From Gluconobacter sp. Gdi (GTDB lineage: Bacteria; Pseudomonadota; Alphaproteobacteria; Acetobacterales; Acetobacteraceae): a DNA stretch of 64,000 nucleotides. Location of the stretch: positions 372,001 to 436,000 of the forward strand of contig NZ_BLJQ01000001.1 in NCBI RefSeq assembly GCF_014132155.1, given 5' to 3'. This document shows, in pieces, positions 3,290 to 62,766 of the stretch. Every line of letters starts with the position of its first letter. Position 1 is the first letter of the stretch. The translations under genes were made by a program, and so were the position numbers. Below the pieces are notes generated by a model, which saw only the letters and a list, made by a program, of their open reading frames with translations, had not been told where the DNA came from and made no database searches.

Positions 3290-6160
3290 GTGGCGGACAC
3301 AATCTCTAACACCGGCCTAGACAAAGTGGGCAGTGTCCTGCGGGATCTGGAAAAGCATGGCCAGTCCCCCTGGCTGGACTTTATCCAGCGCAGTTTTACG
3401 GAAGATGGCAGCCTCAAGAAGCTTGTCGAGGAAGACGGGCTTCGCGGGGTCACCTCCAACCCGGCCATTTTCGAGAAGGCCATCGGTAAGGGGACGGAAT
3501 ACGATCCTCAGATCCGCAAGCTTCTCGAAGGGGAAGGTCTCTCTGCTGGAGACCTTTACGAGCACCTCGCGATTGATGACATCCGCGCTGCCTGCGGTGT
3601 CCTTTATCCGGTGTTCGAAAAGACAAAGGGTCTGGACGGGTACGTCAGCCTCGAAGTCTCTCCGTATCTGGCCTTTGACGCGCACGGCACCATCACGGAA
3701 GCCCGTCGCCTGTGGAAGGCTGTCGGTCGTAAGAACCTGATGGTCAAGATTCCGGGTACGGAAGAAGGCACGGGTGCGATCCGCGAAGCGATTGCAGACG
3801 GCATCAACATCAACGTGACGCTGCTGTTCTCTCTGGATGCGTACAAGGCCGTTCTGGAAGCTTACATTTCCGGTCTTGAAGCCCGCGCAGCCCGTGGGGA
3901 AGACATTTCCCACATCTCCAGCGTTGCTTCCTTCTTCGTCAGTCGTATTGACGCAAAGATCGATGGCGAAATCGACCGCCGCGTCGCTGCGGGTGACAAG
4001 GATGCCGAAGCGCTCAAGGCTCTGCGTGGCAAGGTTGCCATCGCAAACGCCAAGGCCGCCTATCAGTATTACCTTGACGTCAAGAAGAGCCCGCGCTGGC
4101 AGGCACTTGCTGCCAAGGGTGCAAACCCGCAGCGTCTGCTCTGGGCCAGCACCGGCACGAAGGACAAGGCTTACTCTGACGTCCTGTACGTCGAAGAGCT
4201 GATTGGTCCGGAGACGGTCAACACCATTCCGCCAGCAACGTTCGATGCGTTCCGTGATCACGGTAAGCTCCGTGAGAGCCTGACGGAAAACGTTGAAGAA
4301 GCCCGTCACGTTCTGGCTGAGGCCGAGCGCCTTGGTCTGGATCTGGCCGGTGTCACGGCGAAGCTGGTGAAGGATGGCTGTGCGTCCTTCTCTGAGTCCT
4401 TCGACACTCTTCTCGGTGCGGTCGCTGAAAAGCGGGAGTCTGTGCTGGGAAAACGGTTGCTCCACGTCACAGCTGACCTTCCCTCGGATATCCGCGACGA
4501 TGTTGCTGAATCCGAGACGGCGTGGAGCAAGGAAGGTCTGGTCCGTCGCATTTGGGCGAAGGACGCCTCTGTCTGGACGAATGGTGCTGAAGCCGGTTGG
4601 CTGAACTGGCTGACCATCGTTCAGGATCGTTTGTGGCACATCGAAGAGCTGGAACTTCTGGCTCGTGATGTCCGCAGTCGTGGTTTCTCTGACATCCTGC
4701 TTCTGGGTATGGGCGGTTCGAGCCTTGGCCCAGAGGTCCTGGCCGAAACCTTCGGTCAGCAGGAAGGTTGGCCGAAGCTGCATGTTCTCGACAGCACCGA
4801 CCCGCAGCAGGTTCGGGCTTATGAGAAGGCCGTTGATCTCAAGAAGACCCTGTTCATCGTGGCCAGCAAGTCTGGCGGTACGCTGGAGCCGAACATTCTG
4901 TTCGCGCATTTCTGGACGGTTGCCGGTCAGGCTCTGGGCAAGGCTCCGGGCGATAACTTCATCGCCATCACGGACCCTGATTCCCACATGCAGAAGGTCG
5001 CTGAAGAGAACGGCTTCTGGCGCATTTTTTACGGCGATCCAAAAATCGGCGGACGGTTCTCTGTCCTGTCAAACTTTGGACTGGTGCCAGCCGCCGTCAG
5101 CGGTCTGGATGTTCGCAAGTTCTTGACCATTACCAATCTGATGGTCGAGAGCTGTGGTCCAAGCGCACCGGCACACGTTAACCCCGGTGTGACGCTGGGT
5201 CTGATCCTTGGTCATTCCGCCAAGTGCTTCGGCCGTGACAAGGTGACAATCCTTGCTTCCAAGGGCATTGCGTCCTTCGGGGCCTGGCTTGAGCAGCTTA
5301 TTGCGGAAAGCACCGGTAAGAAGGGCACAGGTCTGATCCCGATTGACGAGGAAGTGCTCGGCACGCCTGACGTCTACGGCAAGGACCGCGTTTTCGTGGA
5401 CATCCTGCTGGGCGACGACGTTCCGGATAGTCGTCTTGGAGCACTGCGTGAAGCTGGAGCTCCGGTGATTACGGTGCGTCTGGCAGACAAAAACGAGATC
5501 GGGCAGGCCTTCTTTGTCTTTGAATTTGCAACTGCTGTTGCAGGTGCGGTTCTGGGCATTGACCCGTTTGATCAGCCGGATGTCGAGTTCAGCAAGGTTG
5601 AAACCCGCAAGCTGACGAACGCCTATGCTGAAACTGGTTCACTGCCAGCAGAAGAGCCGTTCGCAATCGACGGAAAGCTGTCTTTCTACGCAGATGAAAA
5701 GAATGCGGGTGTTCTTGGGGGAGGAGACGCTGTTTCCGTTCTCAAGAAGCACTTCAGCCGTGTTGGTGCGGGCGATTATGTTGGCCTTCTGGCCTATATC
5801 GAGCGCAACCGTGAAACACGGGACTGGGCGCAGGACGTTCGGATGGAATTGCGGGATGCGCTGAAGGTTGCCACAGCAGCCGAGTTCGGCCCGCGCTTCC
5901 TTCACTCGACAGGCCAGGCCTACAAGGGCGGCCCCGACAGTGGTGTTTTCCTTCAGGTAACTGCGGCTGATGCTGCCGACGTTCCGGTTCCGGGGCATGG
6001 TTTCAGCTTCGGTGTCGTCAAGGCGGCACAGGCACGCGGTGACTTTGAAGTTCTCTCGGCCCGTGGGCGTCGTGCCCTCCGGGTGCATATCGATGGACCG
6101 TTGGAAGAGGGCCTGAAGACCCTTGCCACGGCAATCCATAAAGCGGTGGCAGGAGCATAA
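3290..6160 (+). CDS. tal-pgi: Bifunctional transaldolase / glucose-6-phosphate isomerase
   Basis: This 956-residue protein joins two enzymes. Residues 1 to about 370 are a TalB-type transaldolase: [13 protein letters not shown] lies near residue 53, and the Schiff-base lysine is K153 in [10 protein letters not shown]. Residues from about 400 to the end are a glucose-6-phosphate isomerase of the SIS fold, with [14 protein letters not shown] and [11 protein letters not shown]. The start is GTG at 3290, placed 5 bp after a strong AAGGAGAG. The fusion channels fructose-6-phosphate made by transaldolase back to glucose-6-phosphate for another turn of the oxidative pathway. The gene ends two bases before the gnd start. 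The fusion is characteristic of acetic acid bacteria and occurs in some other lineages. Confidence 0.96.
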
Positions 6161-17711: not shown

Positions 17712-17768
17712 GGATAGCTTTCCCGTAACGAAGCGGAATCGGAACGGGCGGAAACTAGTCTCAATATC

Positions 17769-17819
17769 GTGAGGGGTGTGTGAACCTAGTGTGAAGCTGG
17801 GGTGACAGATTTATGACGC
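17769..17819 (-). promoter_or_regulatory. PHO-box array: five half-sites at 11-bp steps
   Basis: Read on the minus strand, 7-mers of form NNNTCAY occur at 17819-17813 (GCGTCAT), 17808-17802 (CTGTCAC), 17797-17791 (GCTTCAC), 17786-17780 (GGTTCAC) and 17775-17769 (CCCTCAC), each 11 bp apart. The first pair with its AAAT spacer matches the 18-bp E. coli consensus at 16 positions. PhoB binds such direct repeats as a tandem dimer. The upstream repeat lies across the end of the HerA-like gene. A CTAGTT sits about where a -10 would be, but no strong -10 is evident. Confidence 0.85.
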
Positions 17820-19256
17820 CGTTTGCCAGCCTAAGCCGACGATCGCAACGCGGCGGCCGAACGGTGTTTCCTGCAACACTATGACTTCTCTTTCTTCGAG
17901 ATATGTCAGTTGGCGGCGGGCGCGTCCCAGGGAATGGGTGCCATAGGCGCGAGCCAGAGCACTGTCATCCGGGCAGGTTTCCGAATCGAGCGCGGTGCGT
18001 GCCAGCAACAAAAAGACGCCCTGAACGTCTTCCGGCAGGGATGCTGCAACAGCTTCGGCTTTCTGCCAGTCCTCGCTCTCCGCACGCTCCCGGTCCAGAC
18101 CTGCACGGATCGTAGCGAGGATGCGCTGGAAGCGGCCCAGATCGAGGATGTTCCGTGACAGACCCTGAATACGGGCTCGAAGTTGGAAGTCCTGATAAAG
18201 GGTGGCGAGTGGCTTGTAATCGGCGCCATCTTCAGAGGCGACACCAGCAACCATGTCCCAGATCTGGGCTGGATCAATTTCAGTAATGTCGGCCGTTGCA
18301 GCAGGTTCTTCAGCGGCTTCCCGCGTTGCGCCATAGGCATCAAGCTGCGCGAGAAGATCCGGCGGCGGCGGACGTGTTTCGCGGCGGGGGCGAGGCGAAA
18401 ATTCGTGGACGGGCTCGAGAATGATGTCTCGCAGGTCCTCGGCATCCATGGGCTGCAAAGGAACGAGCACTGGTCCCGTGTTGTGGCTGGCTGTTTCAAC
18501 CGGCCCGATTGTCAGCAGCTTCGGACGACGGGAGAGAGCGGGTCCGAGCGCCATGAACTGCCCCCGGGCAAGATCACGGAAAGATTCTGCGGCCCGACGC
18601 TCCATGCCCAGAAGATCGGCGGCGCGGGCCATGTCGATGTCGAGGAAGGTCCGGCCCATCAGGAAGTTCGAGGCTTCTGCCGCGACGTTCTTGGCCAGTT
18701 TGGCCAGACGCTGTGTTGCGATGACACCGGCCAGACCACGTTTACGCCCACGACACATGAGGTTTGTCATGGCACCGAGTGAGAGGCGGCGGGCTTCATC
18801 GGATGTGTCCCCGCCCGCAACCGGTGCGAAGAGCTGGGCTTCATCCACCACAACCAGAGCCGGATACCAGTTGGCGCGTGGTGCTTCGAACATACCGTTC
18901 AGGAATGCGCCGGCTGCACGCAGCTGCATTTCGGCTTCCACCTGTTCAAGGTTCAGCACAACAGATGCACGATGCGCCCTGACACGTTCACCGGCTGCAC
19001 GCAGGCTGGCTTCGGACTGGTCTTCCACGTCAATGACCAGATGGCCATAGCGGTCTGCCAGGGTGACGAAGTCGCCTTCCGGGTCGATCATGACCTGTTG
19101 AACGAGGGTTGCGGTCTGTTCCAGCAGTCGGCGCAGAAGGTGGGATTTGCCTGAGCCGGAGTTACCCTGAACCAGCAGGCGCGTGGCCAGCAGTTCCGGC
19201 AAATCAATGCAGGTGTCTGAGCCGTCGCGGCCCTGTCCGAGAACGATGGATGTCAT
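17811..19256 (-). CDS. HerA/VirB4-like ATPase (DUF87)
   Basis: This 481-residue P-loop ATPase has Walker A GNSGSGKSHLLRRLLE near residue 31, a short MIDPEGDF strand, and Walker B ALVVVDEAQLFAP near residue 132, with a sensor-like GVIATQRLAKL after it. This order is that of the HerA/FtsK superfamily DUF87 group. The C-terminal third carries a winged-helix-like segment (LARAYGTHSLGRARRQLTYLE). No NurA nuclease, Sir2 or other known HerA partner is adjacent. It starts 4 bp after the flavoprotein stop, so the two are probably co-transcribed. Its last codons overlap the PHO array of the next operon. Confidence 0.85.
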   Translation of the reverse strand: MTSIVLGQGRDGSDTCIDLPELLATRLLVQGNSGSGKSHLLRRLLEQTATLVQQVMIDPEGDFVTLADRYGHLVIDVEDQSEASLRAAGERVRAHRASVVLNLEQVEAEMQLRAAGAFLNGMFEAPRANWYPALVVVDEAQLFAPVAGGDTSDEARRLSLGAMTNLMCRGRKRGLAGVIATQRLAKLAKNVAAEASNFLMGRTFLDIDMARAADLLGMERRAAESFRDLARGQFMALGPALSRRPKLLTIGPVETASHNTGPVLVPLQPMDAEDLRDIILEPVHEFSPRPRRETRPPPPDLLAQLDAYGATREAAEEPAATADITEIDPAQIWDMVAGVASEDGADYKPLATLYQDFQLRARIQGLSRNILDLGRFQRILATIRAGLDRERAESEDWQKAEAVAASLPEDVQGVFLLLARTALDSETCPDDSALARAYGTHSLGRARRQLTYLEEREVIVLQETPFGRRVAIVGLGWQTAS

Positions 19257-20569: not shown

Positions 20570-23101
20570 TTAGAAACCAGCGCTGATGGAGCCGGTTGCT
20601 GCGAAGGGTGCTGCAATGGCGTAGGTTGGGGCGGTCCCCTTCACCGTGTTGCCGAAGATACCCTTCATTGCTGTTGCGTTCGTCTGCACGCCCAGTGGGA
20701 AGCCCAGATAGTGCTTGTTGGCGATGTTGGAGATGTTGAGCTTGATGTTCGGGCTCTGCAGGAAGCCGACATTGTGGAAGCGATATCCAACCGTCAGATT
20801 CATGCGGACATAGGACGGAACAGCCTCGTCGTTCATGAATGTGGAATACTGCTTGGCAACGTATTTCACGTTGTAAGCACCGAACAGGCTGCCGTCATCG
20901 TAATCCAGGTTGAAGCCGACCTGATACTTGGGTGTTTCAGGCGCGAACTTCCCCTTGGTTGGGAGATAATCGACAGAGCTGCTGCTGCCGCCCTTCAGGT
21001 TGCTGGTCGTGCGGGCATCGACATACTCGAACGAAACATAAGGACGCAGGTGGTAGAAGATCGGACGTGTGCCGATTTCTGCATCCACACCATTTGAAGT
21101 CTGTCCACCAGCATTGATGTTGTTGCTGAAATAGTTGGAGCAGGCATCATCCATGCACTGGCTCTGGGAGAAGAAGCGGTTTGTGAAGTCGTAGTGGAAG
21201 TAGGTGATCGAGGCCATGACGGTCGATCCGGTGTAGCGCCAGCCTGCTTCTTCCGAAATCGAGATTTCCGGGTTCAGGTTGGTGATGCCATGCGTCGCGT
21301 AGCCGCTGCCTTTGTAATAGGCGCCTGCGTCGAACAGGGAGAAGTTCGTAGGCATCCGGAAGTTGGTCGCGCCTGAGATGAAGATCTGGTTCTCAGGGTT
21401 GATCTGATACCGGATCGACGCCGTTGGCAGTGGCTCGTAATAGGTTTTCTTGATGTAAGGGCCCGTGGATGTGTTGGGCAGCATGTTGTGTGCGTCACGG
21501 GTAACGATGGCGTATTTCAGGCCGCCTTCGATCGTGAGCTTGTTGTTCAGCAGGGACAGGCTGTCACCGATGAACATCGTGTGCACGCGGGTCTGTGTGA
21601 GGTTTGAGCGATACTGATACGTTGCGCCATTATCAAAGACGTAATTCGCAGCCTGTCCCCAGACGCTCCAGGGCGTACCGTCGGTACCAATGCCTGTGGC
21701 GGGGCCGCTCTGGATCTGCTTGGAATATTCGAACCAGTAACCAACCATCAGACGGTTCACGCCTGTCGTCAGCGTCAGCTTGGTGACAGCACCAGGACGA
21801 TACGTCGTTGTGATGGACGGTTCATAGAGCAGTGTACCCTTGGCGACGGTTTTGCCTTCAAGGCTCCCGCCCATGGACGTGGCACCATAGCTGGTGGGGA
21901 CGGCATATGCGCCACCGCCGCTACCGCTGCCGTACCAGAAGTAAGGCGTTTCCGTTAGCGTCAGGTGATCCGTCAGCTTGAAGGTGGATGGCGCGCTGAC
22001 ATAGATGTTGGTGAAAGGGTTCTGGTGGAACTTGTAGTAGTCCGCGTCACTCTTCGTGCTCTTGCCCGTCGGGTCCTTGTACACGCCGTTGTAGACGGTG
22101 TTTGAGATTGTCGCGCCAGACGTGTTCTTGAATGTCGTGCCGTTCGGTCGGGTACAGGTCGCACCAGCCGAGCAGGACGATACGTACTTGTCCTTCACGC
22201 CCAGTCCGTATTCGTCCCACGATGCCATGTTCACGGAGCGGTTCAGGTAGTTGTAGAGGCGGTTACCAACGATCGCGAGAGAGACGCGGTTTCCGTCGCC
22301 CCAGTCGTTCACGATCTTGCCTTCCGCGTGCAGCTTGCGGTTCGTTGCTTCACTGTGGATAGCGTCTTCGGTTGCATAGGAACCGGAGAAATACGCACGT
22401 AGGTTCGTGTGGCCAATCTTGCCTGTGTCGAGGCGTAGGAAGCCGCGGGTGTAATCATAAGAGCCGTAAGAAACGTCAAACGCTCCGCCCGCCTTCATCT
22501 TCGGGTCAATCATGTACATGTCGACCACGCCGCCTGCGGCGCTGAGGTGGGGGCTGTCCAGATCGGCAGAACCCTGCGCCAGATTCACCTTCTGGAGGTT
22601 TTCGGAATCCACGATTTCCTGGGAGTACGTCTGGAAGGAGCCGACGTCGTTGATCGGGAAGCCTTCAAGCGTAAAGCCCATCTGCGTCTGGTCGAGGCCA
22701 CGGGAGCTCATGTGGCTTCCGGTCAGTCCGGCAGGATCTGAAGAAGAGACGTTGGCGCCGGGCAGCAGCGCAATGAGCTGCATCGGATCCTGACCTGGTG
22801 CCTGCTTTTCGATGAAGTCGCGGGAGATACTTGAGACGGATTTCGCCGCGTCCTGCTTCTGCATCAGACCGCCACCGACGTCACGGCGTGTTACACCATC
22901 AAAGTACTTGCGACGCCCGCTGACGGAGACGTGCTCTTCATGCACTTCATCTGTCGGTGCCGTATTGCCCATCATGGATGGAGCCGCAGCCTGATGACGG
23001 GCTGGCTTATGATCCGGACTGGAAGAAGATGGTGCCGCCAGTGCAGGAGCGGCCCCCAGGGCCATGAGGGCGGACGTTGATAGAAGGCGTGCAAGGCGCA
23101 T
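20570..23101 (-). CDS. TonB-dependent outer-membrane receptor
   Basis: This 843-residue protein has a signal peptide ending in ALAAP, a long Ser/His/Pro-rich spacer of about 30 residues, a plug domain (residues 75-200, with LEGFPINDVGSF and the conserved SSRGLDQTQ), and a barrel ending in the expected aromatic (SISAGF). The plug and barrel point to active transport energised by TonB/ExbB/ExbD, none of which is encoded here. The ligand cannot be inferred; no neighbouring periplasmic enzyme or ABC importer gives a clue. The barrel has a Cys pair in SCSAGATC and another in CMDDAC, which could form extracellular disulfides. Confidence 0.9.
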   Translation of the reverse strand: MRLARLLSTSALMALGAAPALAAPSSSSPDHKPARHQAAAPSMMGNTAPTDEVHEEHVSVSGRRKYFDGVTRRDVGGGLMQKQDAAKSVSSISRDFIEKQAPGQDPMQLIALLPGANVSSSDPAGLTGSHMSSRGLDQTQMGFTLEGFPINDVGSFQTYSQEIVDSENLQKVNLAQGSADLDSPHLSAAGGVVDMYMIDPKMKAGGAFDVSYGSYDYTRGFLRLDTGKIGHTNLRAYFSGSYATEDAIHSEATNRKLHAEGKIVNDWGDGNRVSLAIVGNRLYNYLNRSVNMASWDEYGLGVKDKYVSSCSAGATCTRPNGTTFKNTSGATISNTVYNGVYKDPTGKSTKSDADYYKFHQNPFTNIYVSAPSTFKLTDHLTLTETPYFWYGSGSGGGAYAVPTSYGATSMGGSLEGKTVAKGTLLYEPSITTTYRPGAVTKLTLTTGVNRLMVGYWFEYSKQIQSGPATGIGTDGTPWSVWGQAANYVFDNGATYQYRSNLTQTRVHTMFIGDSLSLLNNKLTIEGGLKYAIVTRDAHNMLPNTSTGPYIKKTYYEPLPTASIRYQINPENQIFISGATNFRMPTNFSLFDAGAYYKGSGYATHGITNLNPEISISEEAGWRYTGSTVMASITYFHYDFTNRFFSQSQCMDDACSNYFSNNINAGGQTSNGVDAEIGTRPIFYHLRPYVSFEYVDARTTSNLKGGSSSSVDYLPTKGKFAPETPKYQVGFNLDYDDGSLFGAYNVKYVAKQYSTFMNDEAVPSYVRMNLTVGYRFHNVGFLQSPNIKLNISNIANKHYLGFPLGVQTNATAMKGIFGNTVKGTAPTYAIAAPFAATGSISAGF

Positions 23102-55694: not shown

Positions 55695-55728
55695 CAGCCG
55701 GAATGATTAAAGCGGTTCCGGCTGTTTA
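55695..55728. terminator. Dyad terminator between the lactonase and GNAT-Nudix genes
   Basis: CAGCCGGAA (55695-55703) pairs perfectly with TTCCGGCTG (55716-55724), followed by TTTA. It is shared by two converging genes. Confidence 0.75.
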
Positions 55729-56739
55729 TCCCAGAAGTTCCTGAAGGAGTGGGATGAGTGGTAGATCCGGATCTGGCATTGGATATTTTGCCAGATCGGC
55801 TGCCTCCACCCACGCCAGTGCCTGCCCTTCCCGTGGGGCAGGAACGCCGCGCCACCGCCGCACAACATACAGTGGCATCAGAAGATGAAACGGGCCTGCA
55901 TTTTCACTGACGAAAGTGAAAGGGGCGAGGCAGGCTCCTGTCAGGTCGACATCCAGCTCCTCTTTCATTTCCCGGATGAGGGCCTGTTCCGGTGTCTCGT
56001 CCCGCTCGACCTTTCCGCCAGGAAATTCCCAAAGTCCAGCCAGACGTTTCCCTTCGGGGCGGCGGGCGAGAAGAATACGCCCCTGCGCATCCAGCAGAGC
56101 TGCTGCGACGACCAGAAGAGTCCGTGGTTTGCGTGTTGGTGCGGGAGTAGACGGTTGATCTTCCAGTGCAGCCGGAGAAGCCGTTTCAACGGGGTCCGGT
56201 ATGTCGAGTTGAAGGAAGGTTGACCGCGCCAATTCGTGCACAATGATGGGACATTCGGCCCCACGTGACACAAAGCGACGGCTTGAACGACCAGTTTCTC
56301 GAAAGCCAAGTTTGCGGAGGACGGCGGAGGATGCGGGGTTATCAACCGCGACGTCTGCCGTGAGCTTCTCAAGCTTGAGCACCTGAATGGCCCATTCCGT
56401 GACACGCCGGGCCGCAGATGTTGTCATGCCCTGTCCCCATGTGGCGGGGGACGCCCAGTAACCTAGAGAAGCAGAACGCTTGTCGTCCGACAGGACCAGC
56501 CCGACAGCTCCCAGAAGGATGCCGTCGCGCGTGATGGCAAAATGGTGAGCGATTCCCCGGGAACTGTCCTCCAGCGTGGAGGCAATCCATTTCTCAGCAA
56601 GGTCACGCGGGTAAGGGAAGGGAAGACGACTGAGCATGCGGACCACGCTCCAGTCGTTCACGAGGCGATGGACGGCTGGCGCGTCTTCCGGGCGAAGGGG
56701 ACGTAAAAGAAAATCCCCCGCTTTCAGTTCAGGTGTCAT
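55726..56739 (-). CDS. GNAT acetyltransferase fused to a Nudix (MutT-like) hydrolase
   Basis: This 337-residue protein has an N-terminal RimJ/L-type GNAT domain (residues 8-165). [20 protein letters not shown] starts it, [20 protein letters not shown] is the acetyl-CoA loop, and [13 protein letters not shown] follows. After a Pro/Thr linker comes a Nudix domain from about residue 205: [21 protein letters not shown] and the Nudix box [22 protein letters not shown]. This half resembles 8-oxo-dGTP diphosphatase. The box ends LDV rather than LGV, a mild change. Its ATG overlaps the Rieske stop by 4 bp, so both genes are co-translated. Confidence 0.9.
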
Positions 56740-57848: not shown

Positions 57849-58108
57849 GGATATCCCGATCCTGAGTAAAGACGGGCCTTCAAAAGGCATGTTTTCTAAA
57901 CGAGCCTAACAGGCAAAGGGTTCTCGCAGGAAGGGGGCAGGATGTATCAAGGGAAGTCGCGTCATTTGAGCAACATGAGGCGGGAAAAGCACAGACTAGA
58001 TGTCATGGAAACATCATCCCGGGGATCAGAGGCTTTGCCTATGAGTATTGCTTGGCTAGGACACCGCTTCCTTTCTTCTTACCCTTAGTTCCCGGAGTAT
58101 TGGCCTCA

Positions 58109-60523
58109 GTGCGCACCAAACCCCTGCTTCTGTCTTCCATTGCACTGTTGGCTATTCAATCGCAGGCACACGCTGCTGAGACGACAAAGCAGGTTGCGCC
58201 GGGTCATCGGCATGCGCCATCCCGTCATGGCGTGACGACACCGGTAGCACCCTCGAAGGTGCCTGCTCAGAAAACAGCTGTTCCAGCGAAGCACCCACAG
58301 CGGACAAATCTGGAATCCCGGTCGACAGAAAGCGTTTCGGTCACGGCGCGCCAGTTGACCGGTCGCGATGCGGAACAGGCTGTTTCGAAAGCCGTCATGC
58401 GACAGTTTGTGCCGGGAACCAGTCCTTACCGCATGCTGGACCGGATGCCGGGGGTCAGCTTCACGTCCACGGATCCATTCGGAATCGACAGCTTTGGCGC
58501 CAATCTTTACGTCCGCGGGTTCTTCATGAATCAGATGGGTGTGACGGTTGATGGCGTGCCTCTGAATGATCAGACCTATCAGTCTGTGAGTGGCATGAGC
58601 CTCGCCTCGGCCATTATCCCGGATGATATCCAGTCCATGCGGATGTCTCAGGGTGCGGGGTCCGTCGAGCTACCATCCACAAACACGCTAGGTGGAACAA
58701 TCCAGATTGGCTCGTCTGATCCGAACGACAAGCGTGGTGGCAAGATCAGTCAGTCTTTCGGCAGCTATAATTCTTATCGCACCTATGTTCGGCTGGATTC
58801 CGGCAAGCTGAACAGCTCTGGCACGAAGTTCTACACGTCCTATGCCCGTACCGACGAGGGCATGTGGATGGGCAGTGGTGACCAGTTCATGCAGCAGGTT
58901 GATGCCAAGCTCGTACAGCCCATCGGGCAGCGCAGCCGCATGTCTGCCTTCTTTAACTGGTCCAGCCTTGCTCAGTGGAACTACCCGGATACGTCCGTTG
59001 GGATTTTGAAGAATCTTGGATGGCGGACGCCGCATCTCTATCCGAATTATGGTCTGGCCTACGGCATTGCAAAAGGCACGGCAGCGCTTCCGGCTGGGTA
59101 TGGTGGCGTGCCGGGTATCGATGGCTCCGAAATCGCTATGTATGATGGTGGTCAGGCTGAAACCAACTACATGGGTGGCCTGCACTTCGATCTGGCTCTC
59201 ACGGATAACCTGACCTGGAACACAACGGTCTACGGTCACAGCCAGACCGGCTATTACAGCTACACGGACTCCGAAGACCCATCCCCAAATGGTGCGCCGT
59301 TTTCAGAAGAAGTCTGGCAGAACCGTCAGGAGCGCTACGGTCTTGATACGAGCCTTCGCTACAAGTGGGGACGCCACACGATCGAGGGCGGTGTCTGGTA
59401 CGAGAACAACAACCAGCAGGCGGGCCTGTTCAATTACCAGCAGCCGTTGCTGGGGGAGGGCGCGCCGCTCAAGGCTGTTGGTCCGTATGATGTTTACGGT
59501 CGTGCTTTTCTGCAGGGTTACAATTTCGACTGGACGACGAATGTCATGCAGTTTCACCTTCAGGACAGCATCCGCCTGACCGAAGGTTTGACGCTGCATG
59601 CCGGATTTAAATCCATGGTGGCAACGACAGCGGGCGGCGCAAACTACAACAACGCTGACTGGACCGGCTCGGATGAACTGCCGAATGGCTCGCTAACGGC
59701 GTCTCAGGCCTTCCTGCCGCATCTGAATTTGGACTGGCACATCAACAACCACCATGAGCTGTATGTGGATGTGGCCGAGAATATGCGCGCCTATGAGGTC
59801 TCGGCCTATGGCGTGGCGAACTCGGTTTATTCGGTTGAAGATCAGGCGACCTTTCAGGCGCAGAAAAAGTCCCTCGAGCCTTCCAAAGCCTGGGTCTATC
59901 TAGGCGGATACCGCTACACGTCCAAGTATCTCCAGGCGAATGCGACCGTTTATCATGCCAGCCTGATCCATCCGATCCTTGCGGCGGCTGTTGGGTCCCT
60001 GACCAATCCGGTGTCTCAGGTAATCGACTTCGGTCATATTTCCATGACGGGTGCCAATGGCGATATCACGTTGACGCCGATTGAAGGTCTGAGCATCAGC
60101 AACAACCTGAGCTACAACAAGGGGACCTACGACCGGGACGTCGATACGGCGGGTGGTTTCTACGCGCTGGCGGGCAAGAATATCGTCAATTACCCGGCGT
60201 GGATGTACAAAACGTCCGTCTCATACACCTGGAAGGGTGCGACGGCGCATTTCGACGCCAACTACTATAGCCGCCGCTACTACAGCTTCATGAATGATAC
60301 GTCTGTGGGCGGCTACTGGCTGGCGAATGCCGGGATGCAGTACCGCTTCGGCAAGCTGAGTGTGCTGAAAGACGTCACGGCGAGCTTCAACGTCTATAAT
60401 CTGTTCAACACGAAATACATCGCCATGATGGGCCAGAACGATAATCCTGCGACGGGCGATTATCAGTCCATGGAACGCGGAGCCGTTCGTGAGTTCTTTG
60501 GAACGGTCAGCGCATCGTTCTAA
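58109..60523 (+). CDS. TonB-dependent outer-membrane receptor
   Basis: This is an 804-residue receptor with signal peptide (LLLSSIALLAIQSQAHA), a His/Pro-rich spacer, a plug domain (about 65-210; VDGVPLNDQTYQ and STNTLGGTIQIG), and a barrel ending GTVSASF with the proper terminal Phe. The GTG at 58109 has GGAG 11 bp upstream; an upstream TTG at 58052 would add a poor N-terminus. It is similar in layout to the receptor at 15333. The ligand is unknown; a weak PHO-like pair upstream is not convincing. It is a single-gene unit with its own terminator. Confidence 0.9.
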   Translation: MRTKPLLLSSIALLAIQSQAHAAETTKQVAPGHRHAPSRHGVTTPVAPSKVPAQKTAVPAKHPQRTNLESRSTESVSVTARQLTGRDAEQAVSKAVMRQFVPGTSPYRMLDRMPGVSFTSTDPFGIDSFGANLYVRGFFMNQMGVTVDGVPLNDQTYQSVSGMSLASAIIPDDIQSMRMSQGAGSVELPSTNTLGGTIQIGSSDPNDKRGGKISQSFGSYNSYRTYVRLDSGKLNSSGTKFYTSYARTDEGMWMGSGDQFMQQVDAKLVQPIGQRSRMSAFFNWSSLAQWNYPDTSVGILKNLGWRTPHLYPNYGLAYGIAKGTAALPAGYGGVPGIDGSEIAMYDGGQAETNYMGGLHFDLALTDNLTWNTTVYGHSQTGYYSYTDSEDPSPNGAPFSEEVWQNRQERYGLDTSLRYKWGRHTIEGGVWYENNNQQAGLFNYQQPLLGEGAPLKAVGPYDVYGRAFLQGYNFDWTTNVMQFHLQDSIRLTEGLTLHAGFKSMVATTAGGANYNNADWTGSDELPNGSLTASQAFLPHLNLDWHINNHHELYVDVAENMRAYEVSAYGVANSVYSVEDQATFQAQKKSLEPSKAWVYLGGYRYTSKYLQANATVYHASLIHPILAAAVGSLTNPVSQVIDFGHISMTGANGDITLTPIEGLSISNNLSYNKGTYDRDVDTAGGFYALAGKNIVNYPAWMYKTSVSYTWKGATAHFDANYYSRRYYSFMNDTSVGGYWLANAGMQYRFGKLSVLKDVTASFNVYNLFNTKYIAMMGQNDNPATGDYQSMERGAVREFFGTVSASF

Positions 60524-60565: not shown

Positions 60566-61451
60566 AATGCCGCCGTAGCCAGTTGGGGTCTGTTGCACGA
60601 TGAGCGATATCGGCAAACCAGCCCTCTTTCTCTGATTGAGGAATGGAATATCCTGCTGCATAGGCGGCTACGAGAACGGGCTTGCCTGTAGGAGGAAGCA
60701 GGATCGCCACATCGCCGGACGCTGCCCGTTCCACAGCTGGATTGTAGCCGGGCTTAACCGTCCATGTTCCGGTCTTGTGACCGATGCGCCATCCTTCTCT
60801 CAATCCGGCAGGCATACGTTTTGGACCGGTTGTGGTGGCCAGGAGCCATTTGAGAAGCTGAGCCTGAGAGGCCGAACTCAAATTATTGCCATAGAGCGTG
60901 TTCTGAAGGTTCGAGACCATGGCGCGTGGCGTGGTGGTGTCTCGCAGATCCCCCATCGGAACACGGTTCAGCGCCGTTTCATAACGATCCACTCTTGTCA
61001 CTGGGTCATGATGATCGCGCAGCCAGTGTGTGAGGGCCGCCGGGCCGCCAAGCCTCTTCAGAAGGAGGTTTGCGGCGGTGCTGTCGCTCAGTGAAACCGT
61101 TGCAGCGCAAAGCTCTCCAACAGACAGACTGGCGTGCGCTGTTTTTGAAGCCGCGAGAGCGTCTTTGACCGCCGGGGACGCGGCAATGAGATCCTTGCGG
61201 CTGAAGGCAATTTCTCGACCCAGGTGTTCACGGCCATAGTCCGTTCGTGACAAGGTGGCGGCAGTCAGCAGCCATTTGAATGTCGAGCACATGGGCAGGT
61301 GCATGTCTGGGTTTTCACCGAGTGTTCTGTTCGTTTCCAGATCCAGTGCCCACCATCCGGATTGCTCCTGCTCGCGGGGTTCTGCTGACGCAATGTGTGG
61401 GAACGTAGTGAAGGCGCAGGTGGCCCCTGCGAGAAAAGAACGGCGTTTCAT
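60564..61451 (-). CDS. Class A beta-lactamase, Tat-exported
   Basis: This 295-residue serine beta-lactamase hydrolyses penicillins and possibly cephalosporins. The signal MKRRSFLAG has a twin-arginine motif. Active-site motifs are CSTFK (nucleophile at residue 56 and Lys 59; Ambler 70/73), SDS at residues 122-124 where SDN is usual, RYETALN (Glu 158, Asn 162; Ambler 166/170), and HKTGT (Lys 226). All catalytic residues are present; the Asn-to-Ser change may alter the spectrum. It overlaps the DUF815 stop by 4 bp and is expressed after it. There is no AmpR-like regulator nearby. Confidence 0.93.
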   Translation of the reverse strand: MKRRSFLAGATCAFTTFPHIASAEPREQEQSGWWALDLETNRTLGENPDMHLPMCSTFKWLLTAATLSRTDYGREHLGREIAFSRKDLIAASPAVKDALAASKTAHASLSVGELCAATVSLSDSTAANLLLKRLGGPAALTHWLRDHHDPVTRVDRYETALNRVPMGDLRDTTTPRAMVSNLQNTLYGNNLSSASQAQLLKWLLATTTGPKRMPAGLREGWRIGHKTGTWTVKPGYNPAVERAASGDVAILLPPTGKPVLVAAYAAGYSIPQSEKEGWFADIAHRATDPNWLRRH

Positions 61452-62317
61452 GAGTTTGGAATGCCGAGGTCTGCGCTCAGGTCATCAATGAACTGCGCCG
61501 CGACACGTCCAGAACGACTGCCACGCGTGAGAGCCCACTGAAGCGCTTTGCGGCGAAGGTCTTCTGGCGAAACGGGAAGCTTGCGGGCTGCGGCATAGGT
61601 CTGAACGATATCCAGATATTCGTCCTGGCTGGCACCATACAGGCCGATCCAGAGACCAAAACGGTCTGACAGGGAGACTTTTTCTTCAATAGCCTCCGAT
61701 GGATTAATGGCGCTTCCGGTTTCGTTCTCGATCATGTCACGCGGCATAAGATGGCGGCGGTTCGAGGTTGCATAGACCAGAACATTGTCCGGACGTCCGC
61801 CGATACCGCCATCCAGAACGGATTTGAGAGACTTGTAGTCGGCGTCCTGGCTTTCGAACGACAGATCATCGCAGAAGAGGATGCAGCGGCGATCGGTTGT
61901 GCGAAGAACGGCCAGAAGTTTCGGCAGGGTGGAAAGCTCGTCACGCTGGATTTCGATGAGCGCGAGCGTCGGCTGTCCCTTGGCGCGCTGCTCGGCGTTC
62001 ACTGTGGCAATCGCAGCCTTCACCAGCGAGGATTTGCCCATGCCGCGAGCGCCCCAGAGCATCACGTTATTGGCCGTGAAGCCTTCTGCGAAATGACGTG
62101 TGTTCGTCATGACCTGTGAAATCTGTCGCTCAATCCCCCGAAGCAGTGAAAGGGTAACGCCGGAAACCTTCTCAACTGGAGCAAGCGTTCCCATCGCGGC
62201 CTGCCAGATAAAGGCATCATGGTGCTTCAGAATATCAGCACTTGGCGGTTTGGGGCTCATGCGTTCGAGGCTGTCTGCAATACGTTCAAGGACGTTGAGC
62301 AGGGCGTGATCGGTCAT
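61448..62317 (-). CDS. DUF815 AAA+ ATPase
   Basis: This 289-residue protein is a DUF815 (COG2607) P-loop ATPase. Walker A is GARGMGKSSLVKAAIATVN, Walker B is RCILFCDDLSFE, and the sensor/second region is NVLVYATSNRRHLMP, with a lid near DRFGLWIGLYG. No signal peptide or membrane segment is seen. Its function is unknown; DUF815 proteins are widespread in alphaproteobacteria. ATG 62317 leaves a normal divergent promoter gap to yajC; a longer GTG frame to 62404 would leave only 17 bp. The beta-lactamase is translationally coupled downstream. Confidence 0.88.
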   Translation of the reverse strand: MTDHALLNVLERIADSLERMSPKPPSADILKHHDAFIWQAAMGTLAPVEKVSGVTLSLLRGIERQISQVMTNTRHFAEGFTANNVMLWGARGMGKSSLVKAAIATVNAEQRAKGQPTLALIEIQRDELSTLPKLLAVLRTTDRRCILFCDDLSFESQDADYKSLKSVLDGGIGGRPDNVLVYATSNRRHLMPRDMIENETGSAINPSEAIEEKVSLSDRFGLWIGLYGASQDEYLDIVQTYAAARKLPVSPEDLRRKALQWALTRGSRSGRVAAQFIDDLSADLGIPNS

Positions 62318-62421
62318 GGAATTCGCTTTGTGCCAGTGATGAAGGAAGCGCCCGTCCTTGACGGGGAAACTCCGGACGATATGGTCCCCGCACGTTTCAC
62401 TCAAGACTGGACCAATATTCC

Positions 62422-62766
62422 ATGAGCAGTCTGTTCATTTCTTCCGCACAGGCCGCCGATGGCGGCGGGCTCCTCGCGAACCCGACGGTGCTTCAGTTCG
62501 CCCCGATGATTTTCATCTTCGTTGTTTTCTACTTCCTGCTGATCCGTCCGCAGCAGCAGCGTCAGCGCAAGCTCCGTGAAGAGCAGGGTGGTCTGCGCCG
62601 TGGTGACAAGGTTGTGACGGCCGGAGGTATCGTTGGCATCGTGCAGGCAACCCGTGACGGTAGCGACGAAGTTGATGTCGAAATCGCTCAGGGCGTCCGT
62701 GTGAAGATCGTTCGCACCACGATCACGAACATCGTGTCTCGCGACAAGGCTGCAAACGACTCCTGA
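62422..62766 (+). CDS. yajC: Sec translocon accessory subunit YajC
   Basis: YajC is a small membrane protein of the SecDF-YajC complex that helps protein export. The 114-residue protein has a short N-terminal segment, one membrane helix (APMIFIFVVFYFLLIRP), the conserved PQQQRQRKLREEQ after it, and the cytoplasmic domain GDKVVTAGGIVGIV. The genes secD and secF, often next, are absent here; a bidirectional terminator follows immediately. Confidence 0.95.
   Translation: MSSLFISSAQAADGGGLLANPTVLQFAPMIFIFVVFYFLLIRPQQQRQRKLREEQGGLRRGDKVVTAGGIVGIVQATRDGSDEVDVEIAQGVRVKIVRTTITNIVSRDKAANDS

Follow-up and report, generated by a model that had tools for sequence, protein, structure and literature searches.

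The minus-strand array running from position 17819 to 17769 of the window (the whole 64,000 nt stretch of Gluconobacter DNA that was analysed) was interpreted as a PhoB operator of tandem PHO boxes, which would serve the promoter of a gene unit for a TonB-dependent receptor (TBDT) and a glpQ-like phosphodiesterase and turn it on in low phosphate. We give this reading a probability of about 87%, with the binding, induction, co-transcription and substrate as predictions from sequence. It draws on the recurrence of the array in 19 of 26 Gluconobacter genomes against none in the reversed control, the four-slot scores of all 27 Gluconobacter, Brytella and Asaia loci, the register of the repeats, the boxes before the pst genes and the recognition helix of PhoB. 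The proposal of the first-pass annotation, a PHO-box array before a TBDT gene and glpQ, is well supported by the orthologous promoters, the pst boxes, the PhoB helix and arrays found elsewhere before phosphate genes. The switch is of a known kind; less ordinary is a small receptor family with one branch apparently linked to GlpQ and the other to PhoD. The host is placed within Gluconobacter near G. cerinus NBRC 3267, the nearest named relative (locus L011), with 97% identity for the receptor, 97% for GlpQ and 98% for the HerA-like protein.

The array consists of five 7-mers ending in TCAY with starts exactly 11 bp apart, at the positions and on the strand where they had first been described (Table 1). 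PHO boxes have been defined as 7-nt direct repeats with 4-nt spacers, an 11-bp period and CTGTCAT-like half-sites (PMC4415409). Direct repeats of 7 nt, the 11-bp period and CTGTCAT-like half-sites were all found in the array. Its first 18 bases matched CTGTCATAAATCTGTCAC, which we take to be one form of the E. coli PHO consensus, at 16 of 18 positions with mismatches at positions 1 and 2, and the 16-of-18 agreement claimed for the first two repeats is right for this form. The overlap with the 3' end of the HerA-like gene was also as claimed, with half-site 1 overlapping the last codons and the stop of the ORF, while in several Gluconobacter loci (e.g., L004) the array lies entirely past the HerA stop. 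The description as a five-repeat site stood in part: five TCAY repeats are present but the conserved unit is four, with the fifth repeat scoring 2.6 bits against 7.9 to 10.5 bits for the remaining four on the same matrix and occurring in 2 of 20 loci. High-level induction, which had been read from the number of repeats, does not follow from it.

Table 1. Coordinates of the array, the adjoining genes and the related phoD box. Bit scores of half-sites are from a matrix built on 20 distinct four-repeat cores, the core of the window included; TCAY counts refer to 20 Gluconobacter loci, window included, anchored on TTCAC, 22 nt and TAG, which every locus had.
Feature	Position	Strand	Remarks
PHO half-site 1, GCGTCAT	17813..17819	-	7.9 bits; TCAY in 19/20 loci; overlaps 3' end of HerA-like ORF
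PHO half-site 2, CTGTCAC	17802..17808	-	10.5 bits; TCAY in 19/20 loci
PHO half-site 3, GCTTCAC	17791..17797	-	9.2 bits; TCAY in 20/20 loci
PHO half-site 4, GGTTCAC	17780..17786	-	8.6 bits; TCAY in 20/20 loci (its TTCAC is also the anchor of the count)
Weak fifth half-site, CCCTCAC	17769..17775	-	2.6 bits; TCAY in 2/20 loci and in Brytella
Proposed -10 element, TAGTTT	17752..17757	-	Predicted; 22 nt past half-site 4
TonB-dependent receptor, 792 aa	15333..17711	-	Pfam TonB_dep_Rec_b-barrel 94.7 bits and Plug 30.2 bits, both over cut-off
glpQ-like glycerophosphodiester phosphodiesterase, 370 aa	14210..15322	-	Pfam GDPD 147.9 bits (cut-off 23.6)
HerA-like ATPase	17811..19256	-	Pfam DUF87/HerA central domain 35.8 bits; upstream
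phoD/ECF box, TTCATGAAACTGTCA[CT]	L157:4780-5010 (own genome, contig C5 near 129390)		Also in L063-L072, L079 and L080

The glpQ-like gene begins 10 bp downstream of the receptor gene, and the HerA-like gene is left outside the regulated unit in this reading. The best solved-structure match of the GlpQ-like protein was 1ydy, a glycerophosphoryl diester phosphodiesterase. Its score with NCBIfam NF008354 (E. coli-type periplasmic GlpQ) was 172.7 bits, under the curated cut-off of 254, and the product is classed as a GDPD-family, GlpQ-like protein and not as a scored equivalog. By our reading, the N-terminus MLTRRRTLG is a twin-arginine-like signal. A GlpT orthologue, considered as an entry route for the glycerol 3-phosphate set free, was absent from the genome (best match 28.5 bits, cut-off 632.55). 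The receptor is assigned to the TBDTs, which have a plug and a 22-strand barrel, on its Pfam plug and barrel domains; the domain search gave no STN match and no NCBIfam name over cut-off was seen for the receptor family. An alignment of 22 family members had 174 invariant columns out of 947. The structural model was barrel-like with a mean pLDDT of 62.9, and plug residues 88-147 were below 50. General TBDTs were the nearest structures in the fold search, and since the plug was poorly modelled and the matches were of this general kind, the structure was not used to assign a pocket or substrate.

Receptor and glpQ were found side by side in 51 of the 62 orthologous loci (L001-L062); one exception (L058) lies at the end of a contig, and glpQ does not follow the receptor in 10 loci that have downstream DNA. 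The pair was also present in L074 and L077, out of a further 18 loci. Among 398 Pseudomonadota genomes, the receptor family was present at E ≤ 1e-150 in six, own genome counted, and the five non-own loci taken, either over 900 bits or sharing the length of the family, included glpQ at L239 and at L240, the latter outside the class. No glpQ was found in the available DNA of L241, L242 and L243, nor of the weaker L245. In Zymomonas mobilis AN0101, a related receptor is split across two ORFs before glpQ (L056:4034-6433) and no PHO box stood out there, and in Nitrospirillum amazonense a gene for a phosphonate-binding ABC protein (L073, 7262-8146) near a receptor relative gives another link with phosphorus. 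The window itself has a further TBDT gene about 31% identical to the receptor of the array (58052-60523) and another that weakly resembles haem receptors, with a score under the family cut-off (20570-23101). It also holds single ORFs that join a transaldolase domain to a phosphoglucose isomerase domain (3290-6160) and a GNAT acetyltransferase domain to a NUDIX domain (55726-56739).

The alternative that survives best, which we nevertheless consider unlikely, is that PhoB binds the array while the receptor takes up a metal or siderophore, so that phosphate control would be cross-talk and glpQ a mere neighbour. Both the closest solved folds and the weak family matches of the receptor were mostly siderophore receptors, and PhoB control of iron uptake is described for Synechocystis (PMC11126600). 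However, the fold result is unspecific given the poorly modelled plug, the order of receptor then glpQ recurs in the orthologous loci and in L240 outside the class, and the paralogue of the receptor adjoins phoD in all 12 loci. The most likely substrate would be a phosphodiester, for instance a glycerophosphodiester, with cleavage in the periplasm.

The motif is repeated before the phosphate genes of the same genome, the comparison that had been suggested at first. The pstS gene is preceded by the PHO-like box CTGTCATGAAACTATCAT, a form present in 25 of 26 Gluconobacter loci (the exception, L232, may be the wrong place), and the unit pstC-pstA-pstB-phoU-phoB-phoR by the PHO-like box GTGACATAAATCTTTCAT. 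PstC, PstA, PstB and PhoU of this unit scored over an NCBIfam cut-off. PhoB (285.3, cut-off 296.2) and PhoR (233.7, cut-off 334.2) were below theirs, with PhoB and PhoR still the best families. E. coli PhoB structures were the best match for the C-terminal domain of PhoB, with the recognition helix RT-DVHIRRLRKA in common. A third PHO-like box (Table 1) lies between phoD and a divergent set of ECF sigma, FecR and TBDT genes in the own genome and in 12 of 12 relatives, the domains of the divergent set being checked on L063 only. The TBDT of this locus is the nearest paralogue of the receptor of the array (56% identical).

Similar arrays were also found in other genera. The four-repeat pattern gave 36 matches in 31 of 200 Acetobacteraceae genomes (reversed control, 5 in 3), of which 15 were chosen by eye after setting aside tandem-repeat-like and near-duplicate matches, the window, Brytella and, on no firm ground, a few others; the choice is biased. 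In L194, L195 and L196 the gene nearest to the array encoded a PstB that scored over cut-off, followed, also over cut-off, by PhoB in L194 and PhoU in L195; in L200 and L202 it encoded a PstS, again over cut-off. Two of these arrays run into an ORF call, those of L202 and L196, the latter into the PstB ORF itself, whose start looks over-long. An orthologous receptor with glpQ was next to the array in L199 and a receptor relative of 35% identity in L205. Other neighbours were a UgpB-like protein (L197; 393.4 bits, cut-off 411), an ABC permease at 1.6 kb (L198), Porin_O_P at 510 bp past a short ORF (L193) and at 1565 bp (L203), an acid phosphatase at 758 bp (L204) and a product with no Pfam match (L206); the link to phosphate is ambiguous in L203, L204 and L206. 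No phosphate gene was beside the other two of the 15 chosen arrays, L201 (within an ORF) and L207. The five-repeat pattern gave 14 matches in nine of 385 alphaproteobacterial genomes (reversed control, 5 in 2). Simple tandem repeats seem to account for seven of the nine; the other two are the present array and that of an alphaproteobacterium of another family (G300), in which six TCAY half-sites at 11 bp end 52 bp before a GDPD gene (L180, contig C97 near 15290).

These neighbourhoods bear on a second alternative, that the array is a real operator mainly used by another response regulator of the OmpR/PhoB family whose direct repeat of TCAC is similar. Ten Trans_reg_C domains over cut-off were counted in the genome, and related regulators do read similar repeats, for example GTTCACC in Streptomyces (PMC4415409). 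It is nonetheless improbable, as the motif also precedes pstS and the pst-phoUBR unit, arrays of this type in other genera lie before PstB/PhoU/PhoB and PstS genes, and the best PhoB candidate, the only one whose helix was compared, has the PhoB recognition helix.

The frequency of the repeats was compared with chance expectation. When periods of 8 to 15 were compared in the window, TCAY triples occurred at period 11 only, as three overlapping triples all within the array. In the own genome (3,546,407 bases), four triples were found, three of them at the array, and none in the reversed control. Assuming independence, the number expected per genome was 4.7 for triples, 0.04 for four-fold and 0.00035 for five-fold arrays, so that the triples alone are not above the estimate while the four- or five-fold array is, and the array was the sole site with at least four consecutive repeats in the 3.55-Mb genome.

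A search for PHO boxes over window and genome had also been suggested at first. The window gave six two-repeat matches at two mismatches where 4.59 ± 2.13 were expected, which is not significant alone, while the genome gave 70 matches at one mismatch against 23 in the reversed control. Of these 70, 46 were inside ORFs (crude ORF call) and a phosphate gene was identified beside four of the 24 others (the receptor unit, pstS, pstC and phoD/ECF), the only four whose neighbours were searched for products; the list was rejected as a regulon prediction on these counts. Many intragenic PhoB binding sites without an effect on transcription are reported in E. coli (PMC10294691), which calls for caution with any list of PHO sites. 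One PHO-like box of the window, CCGTCACAACCTTGTCAC at 62603-62620, lies within a short ORF call, some 200 bp ahead of a DUF815 gene (61448-62404), and is probably due to chance.

Conservation of the array was strongest in the nearest genera. The exact four-repeat pattern gave 21 matches in the 26 Gluconobacter genomes, all between the HerA-like and receptor genes, and was absent from seven of them. In the orthologous receptor loci with upstream DNA (60), the four-slot score was 26.0 or more in every Gluconobacter, Brytella and Asaia locus, with a background maximum of 25.5 in 3706 stretches. Of the remaining 33 loci, one (L042, at a different distance) topped the background maximum and five further ones (L044, L051, L052, L058 and L059) had a four-slot p below 0.01. 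The two-repeat box had a p of 0.005 or less in four of 14 loci of Komagataeibacter, Novacetimonas and Gluconacetobacter, and a p below 0.03 in a further two. Among the loci of the Acetobacter group, p was 0.006 or less in five of 12 loci and 0.015 in one more, and two-repeat scores were weak or absent (p above 0.02) in the other six. The box did not stand out in any of three Neokomagataea loci (p above 0.02). Eight of nine loci of outer relatives (Zymomonas, Endobacter, Nitrospirillum and others) also had a two-repeat p above 0.02, and no PHO box is therefore claimed for them.

The sequence TAG[GT] followed slot 4 at a distance of 22 nt in each of the 31 loci compared (20 Gluconobacter, the window among them, one Brytella, seven Asaia and three Neokomagataea), in a count whose anchor demanded TTCAC, 22 nt and TAG. 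The -10 motif reported for G. oxydans is lax (nAtnnn, PMC5756330), which makes TAGTTT a plausible candidate -10 element. Spacing between box and -10-like element was not uniform among the receptor unit, pstS and pstC, as we read the sequences; at pstS (L208-L233), about 33-34 nt separate the box from the TTACTA or CTAGTA element that follows it, compared with 22 nt for the receptor gene. The HerA-like gene is missing beside the array in Brytella and Asaia, where the array is retained. From the conservation of the slots, the constant 22 nt and this persistence without HerA, the conserved object is, as far as sequence comparison goes, an operator of four repeats followed at a fixed distance by a -10-like element, and the fifth repeat is a weak addition adjoining the element. 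Chance repeats in the end of a coding sequence and a spacer, a reading that the overlap of half-site 1 with the HerA-like ORF and the non-significant window search might have favoured, are already contradicted by the four-slot scores, the pattern count with zero control matches in 26 genomes, the slot register, the uniqueness of the four-repeat array per genome and its retention where the HerA-like gene is missing.

When phosphate is scarce, PhoB is phosphorylated by PhoR, binds its repeats head-to-tail and recruits RNA polymerase. With the array as a PhoB operator, phosphorylated PhoB would bind as two head-to-tail dimers that fill the four good half-sites and, in the host species, perhaps also occupy the weak fifth half-site adjoining the TAGTTT element. 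Recruitment of RNA polymerase would then switch on the outer-membrane receptor and the GlpQ-type phosphodiesterase together. The receptor would carry a phosphorus compound over the outer membrane and GlpQ would cleave phosphodiesters in the periplasm, after which phosphate might be freed by a phosphatase and imported by PstSCAB, a step that is conjecture. More tentatively, and slightly short of even odds in our judgement, the receptors may form a small, very conserved family of dedicated outer-membrane phosphodiester importers, with a GlpQ branch under a multi-repeat PhoB operator and a PhoD branch under PhoB and ECF sigma/FecR. A classical TBDT of Proteobacteria with specificity for organophosphates would, to our knowledge, be new, and such a family, if real, would add a substrate class to the TBDT fold.

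The literature search found no paper on Pho control of the receptor-glpQ unit in acetic acid bacteria. The analysis predicts a part of their Pho regulon, in which phosphate sensing is tied to two receptors of the same family and to GlpQ and PhoD. In G. oxydans, deletion of pstS improved rare-earth bioleaching and disruption of phoB is among those reported to raise it (PMC12041372; see also PMC8602642), so knowledge of the regulon may be of practical use. The array also offers a ready promoter for measuring the effect of repeat number on PhoB activation.

Compared with known systems, the phoD/ECF/FecR/TBDT locus of the own genome resembles Vre/PUMA3 of Pseudomonas aeruginosa, where the operon for the ECF sigma and anti-sigma factors carries a pho box and depends on PhoB (PMC4971064). 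The receptor unit of the array differs from it by having no sigma or anti-sigma genes and a receptor without an STN match. In Flavobacterium, the phosphate utilisation systems (PUS) combine TBDT/SusCD and periplasmic phosphodiesterases in one cluster induced by phosphate depletion (PMC8115612). TBDT and phosphodiesterase genes are likewise together here, with induction shown there and predicted here; PUS have a SusCD pair and belong to Bacteroidetes, whereas the present receptor is alphaproteobacterial and was noted without a SusD partner. The PhoB regulon of Caulobacter crescentus includes several TBDTs and glycerophosphodiester phosphodiesterases (PMC11208175), a likeness at the level of gene kinds. 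Unlike minimal PHO boxes of two half-sites, the array has four conserved ones, of which half-sites 3 and 4 are of the NNTTCAC type, and the distance from box to -10-like element varies among units of the own genome. It shares with the PHO boxes of bacterial Pho regulons the repeat length, the spacer, the period and the CTGTCAT-like half-sites, and the same motif precedes the pst genes of its own genome.
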